Part shown: positions 128 through 62,169 of the stretch, one piece after another
Layout of the letters: the number at the start of each line of letters is the position of its first letter
Numbering within the stretch: position 1 is the stretch's first letter
IMG/VR virus record: IMGVR_UViG_3300011116_000128
Span: 1-62,169 of that record
Length of the DNA: 62,169 bases
Source of the DNA: a virus
Direction: 5' to 3' (one strand)
Position numbers and translations under genes: made by a program
Notes under the pieces: generated by a model
What the model was told of the DNA's origin: nothing
Databases searched by the model: none
Seen by the model: the letters and a program-made list of their open reading frames with translations, nothing else

Positions 128-3100
128 GAAGTTTGCTGTTGAGAAGCTGGCTGATCTGGCTGATGCCATTAAGAATGGTGGCATCCCCATGCAGCAGACC
201 GTGGCAACCATGCTGTCTAAGGCTGGTCAATACATCCGCCGTGAGCGGACTTTTGCTGGCGTGTCTTATGACACCAAAGAAACCAAGGTCGACAAAGACA
301 CCGCTGAGAACATGGCCTCGTCCATGCGCCAGATCCTTGCGTTCTCCCGCGCCAAGGAAGAGGTTGTCAAAGGCATTCAAAAAGAGTTAGACCGCCAAGG
401 CGCTAAAGTCGGTGGAGAAGGCGAGAAGACGCAAGTCCAGTCTGCCAACTTTGGCTCAATCATGCACAACTTGATTGACCAGATGTTGCTATCGCTCAAA
501 GCGCAAGATTCTGTGCAACACGCTATTGATCGCTTAAAGGCCGGTGAAAAAGTAGTGATGACGGTCTCCAATACGATGGGTTCATTCCTGCAAAACTATG
601 CAGATGAAATGGGTCTTGTCACTGGTGATGCAGTGGATCTGTCTTTTGCTGATCTGTACCAGCGTTACCTTGAAAAGCAACGCATCATCAAAATTAAAAA
701 ACCGCGTGGCGCATCTGAAGAGTACCGGTTGACCGATCAAGATCTTGGCCCAGCTCTAACTGCTAGGTTCAATGAAATCAGGGACTTCATTGAAAGTTCC
801 GGCTTTGGCTCAGCCCCAATTTCCCCTATTGACTACTTGCACAGTGAGCTGAATAAAGCCGGGTACAAGACCGAGGAAATTACCGGACGCACTATCACGT
901 TGAATTACTCAAGTGGCAAGCCGCTGCTGACTTCACGTTCTGCCAACATCAAGCAGCGCGTGACTGCTGTTAAGAACTTTAACAATGGTAAAGCTGATGT
1001 CATCATCTTGAACCAAGCTGGATCTACAGGTCTGTCGCTTCATGCGTCCGAAAAGGTTGATGACAAGCGCAAGCGCCACATGATCATTGTTCAGCCAGAG
1101 AAGAACATTGATACGCATATGCAGATGCTTGGCCGCGTTCACCGCACGGGTCAGGTGGTAACTCCAGCCTACTCACAGATGATGGCTGATATCCCGGCCG
1201 AAATGCGCCCTGCTGCAGTCCTGCTGAAGAAGATGGCATCGCTCAATGCGAACACCACCGGCTCCCGTAAATCGGCTGTAGCTGCTGAAGGCGCGGTTGA
1301 TTTTATGAACGACTACGGCGGTCAAGTCGCCCAGGAATACTTGCGGGATAACCCTGATGTCTACGAAGACATTGGAGGCAAGCGGATTGTTGAGCTGGTG
1401 GATAACCCCACCGAAGCTACTGAAAACGACATTCGCCGCCTGACAGGTTACATTCCTATCCTGCCTATCAAGCAGCAGGAAGAGGTCTACAAAGACCTGA
1501 TTGAGCGTTACACCGATTTGGTTGCCCGCGAAGAAAGCATGGGCACAAACAAGCTGGAATCCAAGGCCAAGGACTTGGACGCCAAAACCATATCGTCTGT
1601 GCCCATCACCGAAGACAAGAACGTGCAGTCGGACTTTGGTAAGCCAGCCTTCATGGAACAAGTCGATGTCAAGCGCACAGTCAAGCCGTTCTCTAAGGAT
1701 GAGGTCAAAGAGCAGATCGAGGAAAACCTGGGTGGCAAAACTTCTAGCGAGTTTAGCAAGGATCTGCTGAAGGATCTGAACGACCGCGTCCGCACATACG
1801 TTGATGAGCGCGTCCAAGACGTCATTGAAGAAGATAATGTCAAGGCTGACACCATCAATAGTCAAGTCAGCGGGCAAGCTAGTCATGTTCGGTCTGTGAT
1901 TGAATCCTTCCCTATTGGCTCTCAAGTATCCATCAAGAATACCAATGGCGTGTTTGTGTATGGCGTGATCACCAACATCACAAACAGCAAAAAGACCAAA
2001 AACCCTGTTGCTGGCTCTGATTGGAAGATGCAAATTGCTCTAGCCAATGGGGATTCAAAAACCACTTCGTTGTCTTTTTCTCAGGTCGGAAGTTCCTACA
2101 CACTCAAGCGTGAGCAGGAAATCAACTGGCTTAACCCTGATACCTTGAAGGGTGAGTACATCCCGCTGATGGACTTGTTTGATAAGGGCGCTATTGCACG
2201 CCGGGAAAAACGTTGGATGGTGACCGGGAACATCCTGGCTGGGTATGCCGCCGTCAACAACATGGGGCAGATCATGTCCTATACAAAGGACGATGGTACT
2301 ACCGGCCAGGGCGTATTGATGCCCCGCACGTTTGACTTTGAGAAAGCCCAGAAAGAAGCCCCCGTCAAGCTCAAGAGCGCCAACAATGTGATGCAGTTCT
2401 TTGATGCGTTTGACAATGGAACTGTCAAAACAGAAGACGGCAACTTGCGCATTGTTAAGCGCAACAACACGTTTGTGTTTGCGGCTGAGCCATCCAAAAA
2501 ACTGGGTGGTACTTACTTCCTTGACCGCGGTCTCACCGACATTACCGGTGACTTCTACAAGCGCGGTGCTTTCATGGATGCTCGGTACATCAATGAAGAT
2601 ACCGCCATTAAAGCCATCCAATACCTATTGGCTACCAAGGGCGTGTCGCTAGAAGCAGCCAACAACAAAGAAGAAGCCCGCAAGCTGTTTGCGCCTAAAC
2701 CGTTTAAGCCTGGGTTAGCAAACGTGTCTTACAACAATGCCTATCACAGTGGCGATTTGGGATATGGGAAAGATACCGTTCTTGGAAGAATGTCAGGCAG
2801 AAGCACTGGGCATTTTGGTACAGGCGTTTATTTTGTTGGCAATCCACAGAAACTAAAAACTGTAATTAGGGATGAACGTCCAACTGAAAAAGTAAGCTTT
2901 GACGGATTTAATCTTGCGACTCCTAGAAACAATGATAACGCTCAGCGTTTACATGATGGTTTACGGCAAGTTAATCAGTTAGTTACTGCTGATTTGCAAA
3001 CCAAAGAAGCAGATGAAAAAATTAAACGTGCTGCATCTGACATTTGGTTTGCCGTTGGCGCTGGTAAATTTAGTGAAGAACAAATTCAACAAGCCATACG

Positions 3101-6100
3101 CAAAGCTTTAGCGGAAGCTGCTCCGCTGTATGAAGAGGTGTCTTATACATCAAAGTACGTTGAATCTGCGTCTACCCGTGTGATGAAAAAGCTGGGGTTT
3201 GATGGCATTGATGTTCGTGGCTTGAGCGAATTTGACAACACCACATATGGTTCAGTCATTTACCAAAAGCAATTCACTCCACGAGATAGCATTAACAGCT
3301 TGCAAAACCAAGGGCCTATTGGTCAACGTCTAAACCTGGACGAGAACCGGTTCATGGACCGGGCTGATTTGATCCGCCAGTATCAAAGCTTGCGTCAGAA
3401 GCGTGCCGGTGTCCTTGCTAAGTTTGCCAAAGGTGAAGCTGGCCTTAACGAACAACGAGCCATCACTGCCATCAATGAAACTGCTGGCGATTTAAGCAAT
3501 CAGATCAAGGCCAGCAAGCCAGAGCGCCGCAGCGCAAAAAACTTTTTTGCAGACGCTACTCGCGCATGGGATGCCGGTGAGATCAATGACGATGTGTACT
3601 CGGCTATCAAGACCCTGTACGAGCGCCATCCAAATGTGCTTGAAGGATTGAAATTCTCGGTCCGCATGAACCCTGAGAAAGACAGCAATGCCGCCGGGCA
3701 GTTCTTCTCACTGGCTCGGATCGTTCGTTTGTACAAAGGTACAACGGGAACTACAGATCCCGTCACCATTCGCCACGAAATTGTTCACTCGCTTGAACAG
3801 ATGATGTCTGGTGAAGCCTCGGCCGATTTGATCAATGACTGGGCCGACAAACTCGGCAAAGCCATCAAGACCAAAAAGTCCCCTGAAGCCCAGGTGTATT
3901 TCCGTGCAGTGCTGGAGTTCTTTGAAAACCCCACTGAGGATTCTTTTAAGAACGCACTGCGCCTGCTGCCAAGCTATGACTACTACCAATACCTGAACCC
4001 TTCCGAGTACTGGGCGGTCAACGCCGAGAAGCTGATGGCCCGCAAGCTTGGTTCTGGCTGGGACCGGTTTGTCTTGTCTGTCAAAGGTATGTATGAAGCC
4101 CTAAAGGACATGTTCGGGTTTGACAACCAGTACTTGATCCACAAAATCTTTGATGACGTTATGAATGGTCGTGGTGAGCGTTTCACCAAAGCCGCCCTGA
4201 ATGACTATGTTCTGCAGGAAAGCTTCGCTCTGATGAACCAGAACGTGCGCCGAAACTACAAAGGCGGACCAGCACCTCTGGCTACATGGCAAGAAGCCAA
4301 TGAGTCCAAGATAGACAACTTCATCTACAAGTGGCAAGACAAGCACGTTGACACCAAGCGTGTGGTTGAGGCCATCAAGAATGAAGTTGGCCGTATTGAG
4401 GATGCTTGGGATCCCTACCTCCAGGAAGAGCTGTTCCACGGCCGGACTGCCAAGCAGACAACGGATTTCCTCAAAGGCGAGCTGCGCCCATTCCTGGAAA
4501 AGATGGACAAGGATGGCATCAAGCTCCAAGACTTTGAAGAGTACCTCCATAACCGCCATGCTGAAGTACGCAATAATTTTATTGCAGCGCGGAACCCCGG
4601 GATGCCTGATGGCGGATCCGGTATTTACACGCAAGAAGCCCGTGACTACATGGCTGGCTTGGATCCTAAGACCAGAGCCAAGTACGAAGATCTAGCCACA
4701 ACGCTGGATAGGTTTGTCAAAGAAACCCAAGACCTTTTGGTTTCTTCCGGCCTGGAAAAGCAAGAGACTATTGATGCGTGGCGCAAGCTGCTGCCCTTCT
4801 ATGTCCCCCTGAACCGGGATGCTGACGAGCTGGATTACGTTAACCCTGTTAGCGGTATGGGCCAAGGGTTTGGCGTGCGCGGGGCCTTCTCAAAGACTGC
4901 CACCGGCTCTCTAAAAACAGTTGTAGACATTGTGGGCAACATCGCCCTGCAGCGTGAGCGTGCAATTGTGCGGGCTGAGAAGGCGCGTGTTGGCCGGGCG
5001 CTGTATGCCTTGGCTATTCAGAACCCCAACCCTAACTTCTGGATGCCCATCAACCCTGATGCCATCAAGAACAAGAAAAAACTGTATGCCGAAATGGTCA
5101 GCATGGGGATGAACCCAGCTGATGCAGACAACATTGTTCAAGAGCCACGGGTAGCCAGGATTGATCCAACTACCGGCTTGGTTCGTTACTCGGTCAATCC
5201 AGTCCTACGCAACTCACCAAACGTCTTGCCTATTCGCATTAACGGTGAAGACCGGTTTGTGTACTTTAACGCTGGCAATCCAAATGCCAAGCGCATGGTG
5301 GAGTCCTTAAAGAATCTTGATGTCCAGCAAATGGATGAGGCGCTCAGTTCTATCGCTGAAATTACGCGGTTCATTGCGGCAGCTAGTACTCAGTTCAACC
5401 CAGTGTTTGGTGCATTCAACTTTGTGCGTGACGTTCAAGGTGCTGCTATCAATCTTTCTAGCACGCCTATTGCTGATCGCAAGCTCCAGGTCATCAATGA
5501 CTCAAAGACGGCCGTCAGGGCTATCTATCGTGACCTCCGGGGCAAAGGTGCTACCACTCCAGCAATGCAGCAGTGGATTGACTTGTTTGAACAGTACCAA
5601 AAGGCTGGTGGGCAAACAGGATTCCGTGAGCAGTTCAGCAAAAGCAAAGAGAAGGCAACCATCGTCCAGCGTGAGCTGAGCCGCTTGAATCAAGGCAATC
5701 TCAAGAAAGCTACATATGCCGTTCTTGATTTGCTATCTGACTACAACGATGCAATGGAGAATGCTGTACGTTTAGCTGCATTCAAAGCTGCCCTGGATGA
5801 GGGGATTTCTGTAGACCGTGCTGCAAGCATAGCCAAGAACATCACCGTCAACTTCAACCGCAAAGGCGCAAACACTTCCAGCGCAGCCGCCCTGTATGCT
5901 TTCTTGAATGCCAGCATCCAAGGTACAGCTCGGCTCATTGGAACGCTATTTGTTAAAGACGCAAATGGCAAGATGAGCCTAAGCCCAGCCGGTAAGAAGA
6001 TTGTTGCGGGCGGTATGTTGCTTGGGGTAGCTCAGACGGCACTTTTGGCAATGGCCGGGTTTGGACCGGATGATCCTCCTGAGTGGGTTAAGTCTAAAAA

Positions 6101-6974
6101 CTTGGTTATTCCTACAGGGGATGGAAAGTACATCACTATTCCAATGCCATTGGGATTCAACGTATTCCCTAATGTTGGGCGTATTGTTTCTGAATACATG
6201 ATGGTTCAGTCCGGCGGCATGAAGGGTCGACGCGATCTTAAGAAGACCATTACCTACATTGGTTCCACAATTCTGGATGCATTCAATCCTTTGGGATCCA
6301 GCACGTTTGCTCAAACTCTGGCCCCCACTATTGTGGATCCATTCGTAGCAATTGCAGAAAACAAAGACGCATTTGGCCGTCCAATTTCCAAAGAAGACAA
6401 GGCGCTGGCCCCAACTCCTGGCTACAAACGCAGCCGCGAATCTGCTAATGGACTAAGCCAAGCATTAGCCTATGGCTTGAACTACATCACCGGAGGGGGA
6501 GATAAAGGTATTGGCTTGGTAAGCCCAACGGCTGACCAAATTAGCTATGTTGCAGGTCAATACAGTGGTGGTGTTGGAAGGCTGGGAATCCAAACGGCTG
6601 AATATGTAAAGTCAAAAGTAGTCGGAGAAGAAGTCCAGCCGTATCAAGTTCCTATCGTTGGAAAAATGTATGGGGACATCAACACCCCGGCCGCTATCTC
6701 TGGAAAGTTCTATGACAACATCACCGAAATGTCCAAACATGAGAACATCATCAAAGGCATGAAGGGCAAAGGCGTAACTGAGTACTACCAGGAAAACCCT
6801 GAAGCTAGATTGTGGCAACGGTCCAACTACGTTGAAAACCAGATTGCCCGTTTAAAGAAAGAGAAGAAGGCATTGTCTGAACGCAATGCACCCGAAGCTC
6901 AGCTTAAGCGTAAAGACGAGCAGATCAAACAGCTAATGGAATCCTTCAACAAGGAAGTCACAAAACGCCAATGA
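1..6974 (+). CDS. Giant polyvalent protein, 3' part (continues from 56963-62169)
   Basis: The frame is open from the first base, with the first full codon at 3 and the stop at 6972-6974. It is the continuation of the gene starting at 56963: 62072 and 30 are the same base and codon phase. In full-length numbering this part is about residues 1695-4017 of 4017. It opens in the second half of a strawberry-notch/DarB-like SF2 helicase; QMLGRVHRTGQ at about 2068-2078 is motif VI. An ADP-ribosyltransferase-like domain follows at about 2600-2790 (NAYHSG, GTGVYFVG, KLGFDGIDVRG). A zincin-like metallopeptidase has HEIVH at 2952-2956, with PSEYW downstream as a possible third ligand. The long C-terminal region contains a hydrophobic stretch near 3694-3716 (GGMLLGVAQTALLAMAG) and a charged, coiled-coil-like tail. 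Known polyvalent proteins are carried in virions and ejected with DNA; that role is inferred here. The GTG at 30 is internal, not the true start. Confidence 0.85.
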   Translation, partial: GLAQGRAAFVRNLVQDAYGTFFSSATYAKRPDVMDLYSSTDMKFAVEKLADLADAIKNGGIPMQQTVATMLSKAGQYIRRERTFAGVSYDTKETKVDKDTAENMASSMRQILAFSRAKEEVVKGIQKELDRQGAKVGGEGEKTQVQSANFGSIMHNLIDQMLLSLKAQDSVQHAIDRLKAGEKVVMTVSNTMGSFLQNYADEMGLVTGDAVDLSFADLYQRYLEKQRIIKIKKPRGASEEYRLTDQDLGPALTARFNEIRDFIESSGFGSAPISPIDYLHSELNKAGYKTEEITGRTITLNYSSGKPLLTSRSANIKQRVTAVKNFNNGKADVIILNQAGSTGLSLHASEKVDDKRKRHMIIVQPEKNIDTHMQMLGRVHRTGQVVTPAYSQMMADIPAEMRPAAVLLKKMASLNANTTGSRKSAVAAEGAVDFMNDYGGQVAQEYLRDNPDVYEDIGGKRIVELVDNPTEATENDIRRLTGYIPILPIKQQEEVYKDLIERYTDLVAREESMGTNKLESKAKDLDAKTISSVPITEDKNVQSDFGKPAFMEQVDVKRTVKPFSKDEVKEQIEENLGGKTSSEFSKDLLKDLNDRVRTYVDERVQDVIEEDNVKADTINSQVSGQASHVRSVIESFPIGSQVSIKNTNGVFVYGVITNITNSKKTKNPVAGSDWKMQIALANGDSKTTSLSFSQVGSSYTLKREQEINWLNPDTLKGEYIPLMDLFDKGAIARREKRWMVTGNILAGYAAVNNMGQIMSYTKDDGTTGQGVLMPRTFDFEKAQKEAPVKLKSANNVMQFFDAFDNGTVKTEDGNLRIVKRNNTFVFAAEPSKKLGGTYFLDRGLTDITGDFYKRGAFMDARYINEDTAIKAIQYLLATKGVSLEAANNKEEARKLFAPKPFKPGLANVSYNNAYHSGDLGYGKDTVLGRMSGRSTGHFGTGVYFVGNPQKLKTVIRDERPTEKVSFDGFNLATPRNNDNAQRLHDGLRQVNQLVTADLQTKEADEKIKRAASDIWFAVGAGKFSEEQIQQAIRKALAEAAPLYEEVSYTSKYVESASTRVMKKLGFDGIDVRGLSEFDNTTYGSVIYQKQFTPRDSINSLQNQGPIGQRLNLDENRFMDRADLIRQYQSLRQKRAGVLAKFAKGEAGLNEQRAITAINETAGDLSNQIKASKPERRSAKNFFADATRAWDAGEINDDVYSAIKTLYERHPNVLEGLKFSVRMNPEKDSNAAGQFFSLARIVRLYKGTTGTTDPVTIRHEIVHSLEQMMSGEASADLINDWADKLGKAIKTKKSPEAQVYFRAVLEFFENPTEDSFKNALRLLPSYDYYQYLNPSEYWAVNAEKLMARKLGSGWDRFVLSVKGMYEALKDMFGFDNQYLIHKIFDDVMNGRGERFTKAALNDYVLQESFALMNQNVRRNYKGGPAPLATWQEANESKIDNFIYKWQDKHVDTKRVVEAIKNEVGRIEDAWDPYLQEELFHGRTAKQTTDFLKGELRPFLEKMDKDGIKLQDFEEYLHNRHAEVRNNFIAARNPGMPDGGSGIYTQEARDYMAGLDPKTRAKYEDLATTLDRFVKETQDLLVSSGLEKQETIDAWRKLLPFYVPLNRDADELDYVNPVSGMGQGFGVRGAFSKTATGSLKTVVDIVGNIALQRERAIVRAEKARVGRALYALAIQNPNPNFWMPINPDAIKNKKKLYAEMVSMGMNPADADNIVQEPRVARIDPTTGLVRYSVNPVLRNSPNVLPIRINGEDRFVYFNAGNPNAKRMVESLKNLDVQQMDEALSSIAEITRFIAAASTQFNPVFGAFNFVRDVQGAAINLSSTPIADRKLQVINDSKTAVRAIYRDLRGKGATTPAMQQWIDLFEQYQKAGGQTGFREQFSKSKEKATIVQRELSRLNQGNLKKATYAVLDLLSDYNDAMENAVRLAAFKAALDEGISVDRAASIAKNITVNFNRKGANTSSAAALYAFLNASIQGTARLIGTLFVKDANGKMSLSPAGKKIVAGGMLLGVAQTALLAMAGFGPDDPPEWVKSKNLVIPTGDGKYITIPMPLGFNVFPNVGRIVSEYMMVQSGGMKGRRDLKKTITYIGSTILDAFNPLGSSTFAQTLAPTIVDPFVAIAENKDAFGRPISKEDKALAPTPGYKRSRESANGLSQALAYGLNYITGGGDKGIGLVSPTADQISYVAGQYSGGVGRLGIQTAEYVKSKVVGEEVQPYQVPIVGKMYGDINTPAAISGKFYDNITEMSKHENIIKGMKGKGVTEYYQENPEARLWQRSNYVENQIARLKKEKKALSERNAPEAQLKRKDEQIKQLMESFNKEVTKRQ

Positions 6975-7426: not shown

Positions 7427-7665
7427 CAGTGGACCTTTGTTTCGTTCATTTCTTCCCTAATTTCTTTCAGCATGGTACGGATGAAGCTGATTAAAGTTTC
7501 ATCGGTCTCTTTCTCTGTTCCAGGCTTCTCTGTATGAACGGCAATTGAACACAGCACATGCGAAAGGGAAATGATTGCGCTAAATGGATGCGTGCATTCT
7601 GTGTTCATTACAGTTTCAAAGACCGCCGCACGCATTTCCTTTGTCTCATCGGTAAAGTCTTTCAT
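7426..7665 (-). CDS. Hypothetical protein, 79 aa
   Basis: Not recognised. Starting at ATG 7665 leaves GGAG five bases upstream and an ATGA overlap with the preceding gene; the GTG one codon earlier is less likely. The C-terminal half is a predicted charged helix (SFIRTMLKEIREEMNE). No catalytic motif is visible. Confidence 0.55.
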   Translation of the reverse strand: MKDFTDETKEMRAAVFETVMNTECTHPFSAIISLSHVLCSIAVHTEKPGTEKETDETLISFIRTMLKEIREEMNETKVH

Positions 7666-7937
7666 CACATCTCCAATGATTCAATTTGGGCAGACAGAAG
7701 GTCATTCAGGTACTTGCCCCGAACAGCTATGTGTTCAATCTCTTTCACATCATCAACCAATCGGACGCAATCCTTCAGGGCTTTGTTGTACCCAGACTTG
7801 TAGGCGTCATTGCCGTCAAGGATCATGCAGATAGCATCACGCACCATCCCTGATGCCTTGCGCTGCGCTGCCAATACCTTTATCTTGTCGTGGTACTCCA
7901 CCGGCAAATAAACGCTGTAGGGGATCATTTTTTTCAT
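7665..7937 (-). CDS. Ribbon-helix-helix-like DNA-binding protein, 90 aa
   Basis: The N-terminus reads as a beta strand (IPYSVYLP) followed by two short helices (EYHDKIKVLAAQRK, SGMVRDAICMIL), the pattern of Arc/CopG-type ribbon-helix-helix proteins, which bind DNA as dimers and often repress their own operon. A charged helical tail follows. The ATG at 7937 was chosen because GGAGG sits five bases upstream; the longer TTG start would place that SD inside the gene. It could regulate the leftward operon, but no operator has been tied to it. Confidence 0.55.
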   Translation of the reverse strand: MKKMIPYSVYLPVEYHDKIKVLAAQRKASGMVRDAICMILDGNDAYKSGYNKALKDCVRLVDDVKEIEHIAVRGKYLNDLLSAQIESLEM

Positions 7938-8356
7938 TGGTTCCTCCAAGCCTCAAAGCTTGCTTTCAATCGGTTAAATAGGTCGCGGGCTTCTTCGTTA
8001 ATCTTCAGCTCCTTGCGGGACTCAATGTCCAAATAAGAGATCAGCCAACTAGCGCAGGCTTTCTCGTTGCGCTCCATCAGCCATTCTTTCTTGTGTAGCC
8101 ATTCCCAAAAGTCAGGATCGCGGCATAGTATCCCAGCCATCTTAACGGCATGGTCGCCTGGGAACTCATGTTCTCGGTTCATCGGCTGCTCATCGTCACC
8201 CAGCCGGACCATGACCACCACATAACGAGAGCCGACAAAGTCGCGCATCAAGTCATCGGGTAGGTCATCAGGATGGACGGCCATCGTCAAGATGTAGCCG
8301 TCCTTGGACTGCTTGAGTCCGGTCTTAATTCCTTCGAACTGGATTGAGTCGGTCAA
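7934..8356 (-). CDS. Hypothetical protein, 140 aa, TTG start
   Basis: No family recognised. The start is a TTG with GGAG eight bases upstream; the next ATG would remove 24 residues. The N-terminal half looks like a beta-rich fold (YILTMAVHPDDLP, RYVVVMVRLGDDEQP) and the C-terminal half is helical. The phrase LTMAVHPDDLP, followed by a VVVMV strand, recurs in phage proteins near recombination genes, but I cannot assign a function. It overlaps the preceding gene by 32 bases and the next by four. Confidence 0.55.
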   Translation of the reverse strand: MTDSIQFEGIKTGLKQSKDGYILTMAVHPDDLPDDLMRDFVGSRYVVVMVRLGDDEQPMNREHEFPGDHAVKMAGILCRDPDFWEWLHKKEWLMERNEKACASWLISYLDIESRKELKINEEARDLFNRLKASFEAWRNQ

Positions 8357-54269: not shown

Positions 54270-55265
54270 ATGGTCGCAATAACTTCAGCATCGACGCTTG
54301 ACAACAACCTCACAGCGGGTGGGACTAACTCTCAGGGGTTGGCCGAATGGGCGTCTCCTTATGTCACAAACTATCTAAGTCAAGCTCAAGCTCTAGGTAA
54401 AACGCCATATCAAACTTACGCCGGTCCTCTTACGGCTGGTGCGTCCAATCTTCAAAAACAAGCATTTCAAGGGATTGGAAGCTTGACTGTTCCTGGCGCT
54501 ATTGGTGACGCAACTTCAACTGCTGGTAATGTTGCTAAAACCGTTGGTGGGATGACGTATACCCCAACCACAACCGATTTCAACGCTACGCAAGCGCAGC
54601 AGTACATGAACCCGTACTTGCAGATGTCGCTTAACCCTCAGCTGGAAGAGGCGCGTCGACAATCACAGATTACCCAAATGGGTAATAGCGCAAAAATGGC
54701 TCAAGCTGGCGCATTTGGCGGTAGCCGTCAAGCCATCATGGACGCTGAGACCCAACGCAACCTAGGAACAAACTTGGCCAACATTACTGGCGCAGGCTAC
54801 AACACGGCCTACACAAATGCCATGCAGCAATTTAATGCTGATCAAGCGCGCAAAGCTCAAGAGGCGCAGTTTGGCGCTAACTTTGGGCTGGGCACACAAG
54901 CCGCGGCTCTCAATGCGGCCAACATCCAAGGCCAGTTAGGGCTGACTCAGAACCAAGCCAACCTTGCCAATCTTAACGCCCAACTAGGTGCTGGTGCGAC
55001 AGAGCGTGGAATTACGGCCGAAGGCATTGCGGCGGATCAAGCTGAGTTTGAAAAGCAACGCCAGTTCCCCTACCAACAGGTGCAGTTCCAGCGCGACATG
55101 ATCTCTGGAATGCCAATATCATCTCTATCAAACACGCCCGGATCTTTGACCGGCATTGGTTCTTTACTAAGCTCATTGGGTGGCGCTACCAGCGTAGCTT
55201 CCGCTCTTGGCTACAAAGACGTTGGCTCTTTATTGAAGAAAATAGGGCTTGACTTAGGACCATAA
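54270..55265 (+). CDS. Internal/ejection-type virion protein, 331 aa
   Basis: A helical, Ala/Gln-rich protein (QANLANLNAQLGAGATERG, IAADQAEFEKQRQFPYQQVQ) with LAEWASPYVTNYLSQAQALG near the start, a recurring pattern in internal proteins next to giant polyvalent genes. It has no enzymatic motif. Amphipathic helices that assemble a trans-envelope conduit are a reasonable guess. Confidence 0.55.
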   Translation: MVAITSASTLDNNLTAGGTNSQGLAEWASPYVTNYLSQAQALGKTPYQTYAGPLTAGASNLQKQAFQGIGSLTVPGAIGDATSTAGNVAKTVGGMTYTPTTTDFNATQAQQYMNPYLQMSLNPQLEEARRQSQITQMGNSAKMAQAGAFGGSRQAIMDAETQRNLGTNLANITGAGYNTAYTNAMQQFNADQARKAQEAQFGANFGLGTQAAALNAANIQGQLGLTQNQANLANLNAQLGAGATERGITAEGIAADQAEFEKQRQFPYQQVQFQRDMISGMPISSLSNTPGSLTGIGSLLSSLGGATSVASALGYKDVGSLLKKIGLDLGP

Positions 55266-56962: not shown

Positions 56963-59900
56963 ATGCCATTGCCACCTGGGTTTGAGGTTATTGAATCACC
57001 AATTGCCAAACAAGAAAAGGCAAAAAACTTACCCGAAGGCTTTGAGCTAATAGAGAACCCGTTCAAGCTGCCTGAGCGCCCGCCTGCGCCAGAGCCATAT
57101 AGCGTTGGGTCAGGCATCCTTGACCTCCTGAAGCAGACTGTCTCTCCTGCTGTAGCTGCACCTTTTCAAATCCCACGCGGAGCTGAGCTTGCGGTCAAAG
57201 GCGCTGCACGCAAGGCTATGGAAGGTGAGCCAGAGGCGGTCATGCCGTCATCTGTGTATTCCCCTGGCCTGGATACAGAAGAAACAATTTTTGGCCCTGA
57301 AACAGAGGCGCAAAAAGCACGCCGTAAGCTTGGTGCGCAACGAGCTGTTGCGTCTATGCCATCCATCCCTTATGCAAAGGACTTGGCAAAGATTGGAGAC
57401 AAGGTCCAAAAGGACATCTATGAAAGCTTGTCTCCTCAAGGTAAGCAAGCTCTAAAAGATACAGAGATAACAGGCAATCTCTTTAAGGGTGAAGTGGACT
57501 TTGGAACTAACCCTAACGCAATGGGGTACGCCTTACAAGTAGCAAACGTATTTGGCTCATTGGCCCCAGTTCTTATAACGGCTGGGATAACCAAAAGTCC
57601 TGGCGCGGCCGGGGCCGTTGGTGGGGGCATGGCTGCTGATGAGGCAGGCCAAAACGCTGCTCAAGAAATAAACAAGTTGTCTGACGCTCAACTGCGCGAA
57701 CAAAGCCCGTTTTACGCACAGATGATTGCTGGTGGAGCCTCCCCTAAAGAAGCCCGTCAATTGACGATTAGCAAAGCAGCTGAGTCCGGCGCTATTTTGC
57801 AAGGGCTAGTGGCTACGTTTGGTGACAGGTTTACTGGTCAATTGGTGACAGGTGCTTTTGACAACGTCTTAAAGAAGATGGCAGGCACAACACTGGGACG
57901 CAGAGCCGCTGGTCTTGGCATTGGAATGGGCGAAGAAGGTCTGCAAGAAACTGCAGAAGGCGTTGCGTCTAACATTGGTATTCAGGGTGTTCTGCCAAAG
58001 ACAGAGCTTGGCGAAGGATCTGCGGCCAACTTTATCCTTGGCGCGCTAGGTGGCGCAGGCCCAGGCGCTATCAGTGGCATACATATCAATGAGACCCCTG
58101 AAGAACAACGTGCCCGCGTCTTGTCTACTCTGTTGAATGAATCAGTAAAAGGCAAAACTGCTGACCAGCGAGCCATTGACCAGCAAGCAATTAATGCTAT
58201 GCGGCCTGACCGCGGATTCCAGGCTGGGACCAACATTCAAATTGACCCTCAAACAGGTCAGCCGGTTCTTTACAGAGAGCCACCGGCCCCAACAGAGCCA
58301 ACCGGTATAGCCGCGCTTACACCAGCAGCCCCAGCAGAAGGCATTGCTGGCATTCAACCGCCTGTTGTTCAACCAACACCTGTAGTCCAAGAAGATCAAG
58401 AGGCACAAGACAAGAAGGCGATGATGGATGAGGTGATGGCCGCGTTAGGCCAGCCTGTTACATCAACTTCAACTCCAGTTAAAGTTGAAGAGCCAAACAT
58501 TGTTAATGCATATGACATGGGTAATAACATGGAATACCGTGTTATCAAAACCCAAAATGGCTACACAGCCAATATGTATGACAAGGATTCAGGCCAATAT
58601 GTTTCTGGTTCTGCCCGCATTTTTAGGACAGATAAATTTGGGGATGAGGCTTTAACCAAAGCCAACGAATTTGCGCAATCTGAACAAGCTAAAACTGTTC
58701 AGCCTCAAGGAGTTTCAAGTGGCACTGAAGTTTCTCAAATTCAACAAACAAAACCACAAGAACAACAAGCGCCAGTAGGTCAGGAGCAAAGTTCTAAAGA
58801 AGAAATGCTTCAGCGGCTAAAAACCTCGGCTCCAGAAACGGCTGAAACAATTGCATTGCGTCCACGGGTTAACACAGTAATTCAACAGCTTAAAGATGCT
58901 GGGCTGGATAATTTCGCAAACATCGTAGAAGGCGATGCAGTTAAAAACAAATTTGATGAGAAAAAAGTCAAGCACTGGGAGGAGTGGGCTGCCAGGATGA
59001 TTGCTCAGCAAAATTTGATTAAAGGCGCAGAGAAAGGCATCAATAAACCTGTTGAGCCACGCAATCGCACTTTGGCTGACTTGTATGAAAGCAAATACGA
59101 AAACCAATCCGGCCTGTACATCCCCAAAGAAATTACCGACTTGGTTTTGAATAAAGCTAATGAATACATCAAGCAAGCGGCAGATTTAGGGGTTAATTTA
59201 GAGGACATTGATAGTCGTTTTCCTCAATCCATAGTTGCCATAAAAGATAATGAATCAAGATTGCGTGGGCAATTTTTGCGTTACGCCAACCAACGCAAAA
59301 TGGTTGAACGTGACTACAAAAAAGCCAACTTGGATGGTTTTTTAAAAGCCGAAAAAGAACTTGGTGACATGTTGGGCGTAGACCTTGCGCCTTTGCGCGG
59401 GCCATTCGAAAGCGAGACTACCACTGTTACGCCAACTACCCCGGCAGGCGTTACTCCAACGACGGCCCCTGTTACTCCCACAGTTTCGCCAACCGACATT
59501 ACCCCGGCCATTACTCCTCAAACGGCTGAAGAGACTGTAAAGATTAATAAGGCCAAAGATGATTTGACAGATGCGCTAGGTGACTTAGCAGAACTGCTGA
59601 CCAAAAACACGCGCATGAACATCGTGCCGGAGGACGAGCAGAAGCTGATGCCAATCCTTTCTCGGCTGATGGATGCCGCCTTCCGCATGGGCTACTACAA
59701 GTTCAAGCAGGCCGCTCGGTTCATTATGAAGACCATCCGAGAGAAGCTTGGCAAAAACGTGGCAGACCAGATTACGCTGGACCATTTGCAGGGTTCTTAC
59801 ATCAGTATGGCTGGCAAGTACCAAGAGCAAGGTGCAAGCTCCAAGAAGGAAGTTGTTTCTGTTGAAAGCCTGCAAGAGCTTGAAGAAGAAGCCGCTGCTG

Positions 59901-62169
59901 ATCTGTCTACCCCTGATGGTAAGTTTGCTGTTGCCCAAAAGATAGCTGACCTATTCAACGGCGGAGCGGCTTTTGCCAATATCGTTGAGGCACGCAAAGC
60001 CATTGAAGAAATGACCGGCCAAAAGATTGAAGCCGGGACAGAGTCTGCAAAGCAGGCCGATGAAGCTATCGAAGTAGGCGTGGTCCTGGCATCGCGCAAT
60101 ATCGTCGAGCAAGGGCGCAAGGACGGCCTCACCAAGGAACAGATCTACGACAAGCTGGTAGACCTATATGGACGCCAGCCAAACTTGTCTGTGCGCTCTT
60201 CTACCAGCGTATCCAACCAAGCCTATTCAACGCCCAATGCCTTGGCTTTCCTGGCCTCTGAGCGGGCTGGCATCAACAACAAGACCACTGTCTATGAACC
60301 AACGGCTGGTAACGGGATGCTGCTCATTGGAGCCAACCCTAACAATGTTAATGCTAACGAGTTGAATGCAGACCGTTACGAAATGTTGCAGCGCATCATG
60401 GATGGAGCAACCGTTACGCAAGGTAACGCACTTGATTCCCAGATTGAAAACAACACATTTGACGTTGTCATTGAGAACCCTCCTTTTGGCAAAGCTGGTG
60501 AGATCAGCAACATCGACCACAACATTGCTCTGGCATCACTGCAGACCCTGAAAGAAGACGGCCGTGCTGTCTTGATTTTGGGCGGAGTCCAGGCCAATAC
60601 CGAAGAAGGACGGCGCGAGGGATACCGCGGTTCTGCAAAGCGCAATTTCTATTTTGAGCTGTACAACTTGTACAACGTGGTTGACCACTTTACGGTGGGC
60701 GGGAACCTGTACGCAAAACAAGGCACGACCTACCCTGTTGATGTCATCGTAATTGATGGCTGGGGCAAATCCAAGCGTGACCTACCGGCCGCTGACTTGC
60801 CTCAAGTCTTTACCTCTTACGAACAATTGAAGGAGAAACTAAATGATCGCGTGGTATCCACAGGAAATGTCAGCCCCGCCGGAACTAACGTCGGTGTCAG
60901 TACCGAAGGGGGAGTTAAGCCAAGCACAGTGGGTGAACGCACTGAGCGACAGGGTAATGAACCTGGCACTGAAGGAAGAAAACCCGCTGGAGTCGGCGAA
61001 CGCGGCGTGTCAGAGGCTGGAACTACCGGAGGTGCAGAACGCAAACCAAGTGGGGAACGCACTGGTGAAGGACAACCTAAACCTGCTGACGTATCTGAAC
61101 GTGGCGCAAATAAAGGATCAGTTTCCGGCGAAGGTGAGCGAGGAAAGCCCACTAGCGAAGGAGGCACTGAAAGAGGTGGACCTGGAAAGCTGGGTAGAGT
61201 TAGCGTTGTCGCAGGTGAACGAGTCGAATCTGGATTAAAGCAGCGGGCTGGTCAAGAGCAAGAAACCGCTTCTCAAGTCACCTACACGCCAAAGTCTAGC
61301 GCTATCGCCGTAGGAACGCTTGCGCCCAAAGCTATGGCGCAGTCTATTCAAGACTCTATTGACCGCATTGAATCCCAAGTGGGTAATGTGGATGAATTTG
61401 TGGCTGAGTCCTTGGAAATGGATCCAGATACCCTGCGCGAGAAGTTTTCTGCTGAACAGATCGACGCCCTGGTCCTGGCTATCCGCAATGCTCAAGAAGG
61501 CAAGGGCTTCATCATTGGCGACCAGACAGGTGTCGGCAAAGGCCGTGTTGTTGCAGCCATGATTAAGTACGCCATGATTAACGGCAAGATACCTATCTTC
61601 GTTACCGAGAAGCCCAATTTGTATTCGGACATGATCCGGGACTTGGACGATATTGGCATGACTGACGAGCTTGGACTTGATACAGCCAAGACCAACATCT
61701 TCATTACCAATGGTGGTGAATCCATTCCTTACACCTTGTTGCGTAAGGTGAATGGGGAAATAACTGAGAACAACCTAATTCTTAAAGCTCCTAAGTCTGG
61801 CGCTGCGCTTGATGGGATGATGAAAGAAATGCAGGAGAAGGAAGACCTTGGGAACTTCAAGGTCATCTTTACTACCTACAGCCAGCTGCAAACCGTCAAA
61901 GGCAAACCTACTGAGCGCCAACGCTTCATCAAGACATTTGGTGCTGGCAATTACATGATTTTTGATGAGAGCCATAACGCTGGTGGAGCTGGCGAAACCC
62001 AGGCTCGTACAAAAGAACAACGAGATCAACAGAAAGAAGGCAAAGGGTTAGCCCAGGGCCGTGCTGCATTTGTGCGCAATTTGGTTCAAGATGCCTACGG
62101 CACTTTCTTCTCATCGGCTACTTACGCAAAGCGGCCGGATGTGATGGATCTGTACTCCAGCACAGACAT
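56963..62169 (+). CDS. Giant polyvalent protein, 5' part: MTase-like and helicase domains (continues at 1-6974)
   Basis: ATG 56963 has GGGAG eight bases upstream. The frame is open to the right end and, through the 127-base overlap, continues to 6974, giving 4,017 residues in all. Residues 1-35 contain a twice-repeated LPxGFExIE motif often seen in ejected proteins. Residues about 40-1000 lack recognised domains and include Pro/Thr-rich linkers. An adenine-methyltransferase-like domain has EPTAGNGML at 1112 (motif I) and NPPF at 1172-1175 (motif IV). Residues 1294-1425 are a low-complexity Gly/Glu/Arg/Thr linker that overlaps the 60843 frame. The SF2 helicase starts with GDQTGVGKGR at 1519-1528 (Walker A) and has DESH at 1668-1671. 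This MTase-helicase order is that of P1 DarB, an antirestriction protein injected with the DNA. Defence evasion is therefore the best guess for this half. Confidence 0.85.
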   Translation, partial: MPLPPGFEVIESPIAKQEKAKNLPEGFELIENPFKLPERPPAPEPYSVGSGILDLLKQTVSPAVAAPFQIPRGAELAVKGAARKAMEGEPEAVMPSSVYSPGLDTEETIFGPETEAQKARRKLGAQRAVASMPSIPYAKDLAKIGDKVQKDIYESLSPQGKQALKDTEITGNLFKGEVDFGTNPNAMGYALQVANVFGSLAPVLITAGITKSPGAAGAVGGGMAADEAGQNAAQEINKLSDAQLREQSPFYAQMIAGGASPKEARQLTISKAAESGAILQGLVATFGDRFTGQLVTGAFDNVLKKMAGTTLGRRAAGLGIGMGEEGLQETAEGVASNIGIQGVLPKTELGEGSAANFILGALGGAGPGAISGIHINETPEEQRARVLSTLLNESVKGKTADQRAIDQQAINAMRPDRGFQAGTNIQIDPQTGQPVLYREPPAPTEPTGIAALTPAAPAEGIAGIQPPVVQPTPVVQEDQEAQDKKAMMDEVMAALGQPVTSTSTPVKVEEPNIVNAYDMGNNMEYRVIKTQNGYTANMYDKDSGQYVSGSARIFRTDKFGDEALTKANEFAQSEQAKTVQPQGVSSGTEVSQIQQTKPQEQQAPVGQEQSSKEEMLQRLKTSAPETAETIALRPRVNTVIQQLKDAGLDNFANIVEGDAVKNKFDEKKVKHWEEWAARMIAQQNLIKGAEKGINKPVEPRNRTLADLYESKYENQSGLYIPKEITDLVLNKANEYIKQAADLGVNLEDIDSRFPQSIVAIKDNESRLRGQFLRYANQRKMVERDYKKANLDGFLKAEKELGDMLGVDLAPLRGPFESETTTVTPTTPAGVTPTTAPVTPTVSPTDITPAITPQTAEETVKINKAKDDLTDALGDLAELLTKNTRMNIVPEDEQKLMPILSRLMDAAFRMGYYKFKQAARFIMKTIREKLGKNVADQITLDHLQGSYISMAGKYQEQGASSKKEVVSVESLQELEEEAAADLSTPDGKFAVAQKIADLFNGGAAFANIVEARKAIEEMTGQKIEAGTESAKQADEAIEVGVVLASRNIVEQGRKDGLTKEQIYDKLVDLYGRQPNLSVRSSTSVSNQAYSTPNALAFLASERAGINNKTTVYEPTAGNGMLLIGANPNNVNANELNADRYEMLQRIMDGATVTQGNALDSQIENNTFDVVIENPPFGKAGEISNIDHNIALASLQTLKEDGRAVLILGGVQANTEEGRREGYRGSAKRNFYFELYNLYNVVDHFTVGGNLYAKQGTTYPVDVIVIDGWGKSKRDLPAADLPQVFTSYEQLKEKLNDRVVSTGNVSPAGTNVGVSTEGGVKPSTVGERTERQGNEPGTEGRKPAGVGERGVSEAGTTGGAERKPSGERTGEGQPKPADVSERGANKGSVSGEGERGKPTSEGGTERGGPGKLGRVSVVAGERVESGLKQRAGQEQETASQVTYTPKSSAIAVGTLAPKAMAQSIQDSIDRIESQVGNVDEFVAESLEMDPDTLREKFSAEQIDALVLAIRNAQEGKGFIIGDQTGVGKGRVVAAMIKYAMINGKIPIFVTEKPNLYSDMIRDLDDIGMTDELGLDTAKTNIFITNGGESIPYTLLRKVNGEITENNLILKAPKSGAALDGMMKEMQEKEDLGNFKVIFTTYSQLQTVKGKPTERQRFIKTFGAGNYMIFDESHNAGGAGETQARTKEQRDQQKEGKGLAQGRAAFVRNLVQDAYGTFFSSATYAKRPDVMDLYSSTD
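60843..61238 (+). CDS. Candidate overprinted gene inside the giant gene, 131 aa
   Basis: A complete ATG-TAA frame, one base ahead of the giant gene's frame, starts seven bases after AAGGAG. The protein (MIAWYPQEMSAPPELTSVSV to LALSQVNESNLD) is compositionally normal, rich in Leu, Asn, Glu and Ala, with predicted helices. Over the same bases the giant frame encodes only a low-complexity Gly/Glu/Arg/Thr linker. T occurs at only about 7 of 131 third positions; each of these is the first base of the overlapping giant-frame codon, where a T would risk a stop. These are signs of two constrained frames. The product is unrecognised. It may be an early or late small protein made from an internal site, or a remnant of a gene captured when the domains fused. 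Confidence 0.6.
   Translation: MIAWYPQEMSAPPELTSVSVPKGELSQAQWVNALSDRVMNLALKEENPLESANAACQRLELPEVQNANQVGNALVKDNLNLLTYLNVAQIKDQFPAKVSEESPLAKEALKEVDLESWVELALSQVNESNLD
62043..62169. repeat. Terminal overlap, right copy
   Basis: Exact copy of 1-127. Removing one copy gives a 62,042-bp circular map without disturbing any reading frame. Confidence 0.95.

Follow-up and report, generated by a model that had tools for sequence, protein, structure and literature searches.

Organisation of the locus

The window (the whole stretch of DNA that was analysed, 62,169 nt) ends within a giant polyvalent-type gene on the plus strand, the first part of which starts at 56963 and runs off the window end (56963–62169). 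An exact 127-base direct repeat was found at the window ends (1–127 and 62043–62169), and because of this terminal repeat the contig is likely to be a complete genome. The remainder of the gene was located after the 127-bp repeat, at 128–6974 on the plus strand; homologues continue into it, and the total across the terminal-repeat junction is 4,017 codons (4,017 aa).

An adenine-methyltransferase domain region (60206–60838, plus strand) was assigned by its NPPF motif, by matches to DNA methyltransferase PHROGs (down to 3.6e-13) and by an MTS score of 22.9 bits, against a cutoff of 23. It is followed by a linker (60842–61276, plus strand), identified by its composition and, as the original prediction had it, of low complexity (Gly/Glu/Arg/Ser/Pro), and by the N-terminal part of a Strawberry-notch-type SF2 helicase domain (61277–62167, plus strand; PF13872 AAA_34, 5.7e-16, giant aa 1492–1685). 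The gene product is a methylase–helicase dyad, in which an adenine methylase is fused to an SF2 helicase. A DNA ejection protein gene (54270–55265; PHROG 4287, 9.9e-9) lies two genes upstream; this position hints that the giant protein is carried in the virion and delivered with the DNA. The divergences of the methylase and helicase halves among homologues (60206–62167) were nearly uncorrelated (r 0.09–0.32), which suggests recombination within the giant gene, with a breakpoint near the linker.

Nested reading frame and its signals

The linker is the host frame of a nested, overprinted gene (60843–61238, plus strand) of 131 codons plus TAA, which starts with ATG in the +1 frame of the giant gene. 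The Shine–Dalgarno sequence AAGGAG (60830–60835, plus strand) stands 7 nt before this ATG and is read in the giant frame as AAG GAG (Lys-Glu). Both the 131-codon frame and the ribosome binding site that had been predicted for it were recovered. An in-frame stop codon of the nested frame (TAA, 60840–60842, plus strand) adjoins the ATG and bars read-in from upstream. Nested codon positions 1, 2 and 3 correspond to giant positions 2, 3 and 1.

The avoidance of T at nested third positions, to which the original prediction had drawn attention, was observed (7/132 in the window ORF); it is not itself evidence of a gene, since T is scarce at first positions throughout the giant frame (5 % over the nested ORF versus 12.6 % elsewhere). 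Synonymous codons of the linker were redrawn according to flanking usage, with the giant protein sequence held. The +1 frame was open in 15 % of redraws of the window linker and in 13 % (median) when the same procedure was applied over the homologues. An open +1 frame with T avoidance in one sequence is thus little evidence (P about 0.15), and neither feature was retained as proof of a nested gene.

Conservation in close homologues

With the methylase, the helicase and the nested protein as queries, 41 distinct homologous linkers were found on phage contigs; the genomes compared were mostly from metagenomes. The nested ORF is open over its full length, with an ATG start and a similar end, in all 41, none of which has a giant-frame stop within the overlap; both frames are open in further relatives too. 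AAGGA(G) precedes every nested ATG, at a distance of 7 nt in 40 homologues and of 6 nt in one. The Lys-Glu pair is encoded by AAG GAG in 40 of the 41, compared with 53 % AAG for Lys and 50 % GAG for Glu in the flanking giant codons. The codon that precedes the nested ATG is a stop in 40 of the 41 homologues (TAA in 27, TAG in 7, TGA in 6), and the nested ORF has a start signal of its own, made up of AAGGA at 6–7 nt, ATG and an upstream in-frame stop. Randomly placed stops in the nested frame of homologues and lack of an initiation signal had been named as observations that would speak against the gene; on inspection, ORF and Shine–Dalgarno sequence proved to be kept in 41/41.

Selection on the two frames

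Synonymous divergence in the giant frame was followed along the gene in 34 homologues, as had been proposed with the original prediction. From a median of about 0.57 it drops to 0.16–0.26 at 60803–61200, and the reduction is limited to the nested ORF. Elsewhere in the giant gene, wherever it is well aligned, the same scan of 34 homologues gave no sign of another such hidden gene. Within the overlap, variability is lowest at the giant third position (nested position 2), at 0.26 versus 0.58–0.60 in the flanking domains.

Ten independent close pairs were used to count changes in each frame. Nested-frame synonymous changes (0.041 per opportunity) were 1.8 times as frequent as non-synonymous changes (0.023 per opportunity), with a Fisher p of 5e-7 that is approximate, as are all p-values of the close-pair tests, because weighted opportunities were entered as counts. 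The resulting non-synonymous/synonymous ratio of about 0.57 indicates purifying selection on the second frame. For the amino acids of the giant linker the two kinds of change did not differ in frequency in close pairs (p=0.94), and no purifying selection was seen other than against stops. Nested amino-acid identity exceeded linker identity in 820 of 820 pairs (0.545 versus 0.407); the nested protein was also the more conserved product in all 55 cyanobacterial pairs, in all 28 pairs of distant phages and in 98/105 pairs of short forms.

Predicted structure and composition of the nested protein

AlphaFold models were obtained for the nested protein of the window (pLDDT 91.8, pTM 0.85) and for a cyanobacterial relative (pLDDT 92.5, pTM 0.88); they show a similar order of helices and strands but are not independent, as the alignment used for the second, which was built from non-plasmid loci, included relatives of the first. 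The confident models are of a mixed alpha/beta protein, whose fold had no match in PDB or BFVD by Foldseek. No sequence match was found in PDB, and no useful family match in Pfam, PHROGs, NCBIfam or PADLOC. Lone weak library matches were judged to be due to chance.

All 72 aligned nested proteins are acidic, with a strongly negative median net charge of −10 in the phage set. Among the residues that never vary in the close family, W, P, L and V predominate; C, G, N, T, A and S occur once each. No His, Asp, Glu or Lys is invariant in the close family, which argues against an enzyme.

Distribution across phages, plasmids and bacteria

Distant phages and named bacterial genomes were reached with a helicase profile, and a plasmid search added further loci. 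No matches were obtained when cultured phages and plasmids were searched at the protein level with the nested protein of the window, nor when the genome collection was searched with the close-family profile; the distant relatives came by the helicase route. An iterated nested-protein profile then matched 195 of 20,669 six-frame ORFs of all loci, and 194 of these matches lie in the +1 frame of a methylase–helicase linker. Carriers occur among cyanobacteria, on chromosomes as well as plasmids (PCC 7002 pAQ6, Chroococcidiopsis, Gloeobacter), in Desulfovibrio and alphaproteobacteria, and among numerous uncultured phages. In cyanobacteria the nested gene was found in 7 of 386 genomes, and all the new matches read +1 relative to a giant frame that has no stops. 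Several nested starts in cyanobacteria have a weak Shine–Dalgarno sequence or none. The nested ORF of PCC 7002 pAQ6 (NC_010480.1, ~101013–100507, minus strand) has the predicted peptides VWIPSGEGDQALFMVR, IPANLTALDWQTYLELMK and MTIFSTVQLPSYSEYQTADR. Six-frame mass-spectrometry data exist for Synechococcus PCC 7002 and take in its plasmids, NC_010480 among them (PMC3364912). Shorter ORFs occupy this site in further phages and genomes; their match to the long form comes from profile comparison only (probability 92 %).

A helicase tree of 96 domains contains one clade of 87 rows (support 100/99) that includes all clear cases. The nested gene is present in every intact member of this clade; the scattered occurrence and empty sites of a ShiLan-type element were not observed. 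In Hydrococcus rivularis (L196), also in the clade, the methylase and the helicase do not share a frame and only a broken piece of the nested protein is left; this dyad is probably a decayed copy.

Eight of the nine tree rows outside the clade have no ORF at the site, and the ninth is a Bacteroides phage with a +1 ORF. In this phage, BS-TP4 (L192), an unannotated +1 ORF of 119 codons (7603–7959) occupies the same linker, and its C terminus resembles the family (LSQWMEWTFNESDWD); the profile gave no support for homology of this ORF to the nested family, and it is possibly an independent or very distant case. No comparable +1 ORF was found in P1 DarB or Acinetobacter phage MD-2021a, and no nested ORF in the dyads of IncC-type E. 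coli, Serratia, Vogesella and Vreelandella.

The 195th match is a free-standing homologue in Coleofasciculus sp. LEGE 07092 (L199, 4981–5466, minus strand). The other two frames of the same strand hold 10 and 15 stops, and the contig is shared with an overlapped copy. The nested protein can, on account of this copy, exist outside the overlap. On the Gloeobacter plasmid pGMOR1 (L225, 2989–3438) RefSeq lists the nested ORF as a gene (WP_230844304.1); the helicase CDS is listed as starting after it, and the upstream methylase part of the open frame has no listed gene. The nested frame is absent from nearly all annotations examined; the suggestion that it is a phage product needs amendment in that it also occurs on cyanobacterial plasmids.

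Proposed expression and role of the nested gene

The comparative evidence gives strong support to the prediction of dual coding in the methylase–helicase linker, with a separate product that has its own start, and 60843–61238 is almost certainly a genuine overlapping gene. The nested family, as judged from comparison of sequences, appears to be a real, conserved and previously unrecognised overlapping gene family; no earlier description of the nested gene was found in the literature searched, which consisted of open-access papers.

One mRNA would give two products. Ribosomes that start at the giant gene's own start would make the giant protein, in which the stretch encoded by 60843–61238 would serve as a floppy tether between methyltransferase and helicase. 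Other ribosomes would initiate internally at AAGGAG-N7-ATG and release a separate acidic protein of 131 residues with a mixed alpha/beta fold. Internal initiation seems the simplest route to the nested protein, since plain read-in would end at the stop that precedes the ATG.

The nested protein would then bind the methylase–helicase dyad as an accessory or regulatory subunit and might, for example, keep it inactive or stable until delivery with the DNA. That it is a binding partner or regulator of the dyad is suggested by association, and we put this forward tentatively, as a proposal whose chances fall a little short of even. It is favoured because the protein occurs with one dyad clade in phages and plasmids alike, because it has no catalytic signature and because its divergence tracks that of the methylase; the partial correlation is 0.57 with the methylase versus 0.30 with the helicase, a weak difference in a giant gene that is mosaic. 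The earlier idea that the product works with DarB-like functions would likewise draw its support from the near-strict co-occurrence with one dyad clade.

As to origin, the small gene may be the older of the two, methylase and helicase having been fused by read-through of the second frame so that the linker is the overprinted novelty. This history would fit the contrast between the nested frame, which is ordinary in composition, has a stable predicted fold and is under purifying selection, and the linker, whose amino acids drift; it would also fit the existence of the free-standing copy and of unfused dyads. Synonymous codon choice, however, departs slightly less from background in the giant than in the nested frame (29/41), and fused dyads that lack the nested gene exist outside the clade; the history is quite possible, though it falls somewhat below an even chance.

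The nested protein could also act alone against host defence, for instance as an acidic mimic of DNA that counters restriction enzymes, and be only genetically packed with the dyad. We regard this as rather unlikely, perhaps a one-in-several prospect. The uniform acidity of the 72 aligned members, with its phage-set median of −10, the free-standing copy and the fact that P1 DarB, the archetype of the dyad, is an antirestriction protein (PMC5512222) would agree with such a role; the acidity, however, may in part be a by-product of overlap with a Gly-rich frame, the protein co-occurs almost strictly with one dyad clade, and no known antirestriction fold or sequence was matched in Pfam, PADLOC, PDB or BFVD.

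A selfish insertion of the ShiLan type, in which an out-of-frame homing endonuclease lies in a methylase gene and is read by the host frame as a loop, is very improbable. The architecture is alike in principle, with a hidden frame in a phage methylase that is disordered in the host frame (PMC11855218), but no HNH or other nuclease was matched in Pfam, PHROGs or NCBIfam and no fold in PDB, no His, Asp, Glu or Lys is invariant, a Shine–Dalgarno sequence stands in front, and the ORF is found throughout one clade instead of being scattered. Less credible still is programmed frameshifting into the nested frame, which would give a methylase–nested fusion and no free protein: the two frames are one base apart and directly consecutive, but the nested-frame stop adjoins the ATG in 40/41 homologues and the spacing of Shine–Dalgarno sequence and ATG is fixed. 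A chance ORF without a product, open only through the few T at linker codon position 2, would suit the 13–15 % of open redraws for a single sequence and the general scarcity of T at giant position 1, but its probability is practically nil given the start, Shine–Dalgarno sequence, stop and protein kept in 41/41, the synonymous constraint confined to the nested ORF (the scan refutes chance), the nested ratio of about 0.57 and the free-standing copy.

The boldest reading is that of an obligate dyad partner: a folded acidic family without known relatives, which would have been kept for very long as an overlap in phages and plasmids of several phyla; the linker may itself have come from read-through of the nested gene. 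Taken as a whole it is held provisionally, as a possibility that comes close to an even chance but does not reach it.

Significance and comparison with known systems

Few long nested genes on the same strand are known from bacteria and DNA phages, and they are often contested. For the gene described here, comparison across very large divergence gives the pattern that a real overlapping gene should show. Gene callers forbid long overlaps, and a conserved family has in consequence been missed or misassigned; in Gloeobacter, the RefSeq annotation retains the nested gene but not the methylase. DarB-like methylase–helicase enzymes gain a candidate subunit, and among the carriers is a laboratory cyanobacterium, PCC 7002, with its plasmid pAQ6.

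P1 DarB is the archetype of the methylase–helicase dyad of polyvalent proteins, and the terms 'overlap' and 'frameshift' are absent from the main text of the paper that describes it (PMC5512222). In both systems a giant protein joins an adenine methylase to an SF2 helicase, here near a DNA-ejection-type gene; P1 DarB differs in that it is without a comparable nested ORF. Viral genes born by overprinting have been reviewed (PMC8227390), and the present case shares with them the same-strand overlap, the pairing of one structured with one disordered product and a protein without known relatives. It differs in that phages and cellular plasmids both carry the overlap and in that codon usage is ambiguous as to the older frame.

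The nearest precedent is the ShiLan domain, which, like the Pacc40 insertion, is an out-of-frame HNH endonuclease in a phage methylase gene (PMC11855218). In those cases, as here, a protein is encoded in the other frame, the methylase frame reads the stretch as a disordered loop, and annotation misses the hidden protein. The nested gene of the present locus is not an HNH nuclease, has a Shine–Dalgarno sequence in most phage members and is fixed across a clade; its place is between a methylase and a helicase domain, and its carriers are phages and plasmids from several bacterial phyla. The two represent the same trick, performed by different families.
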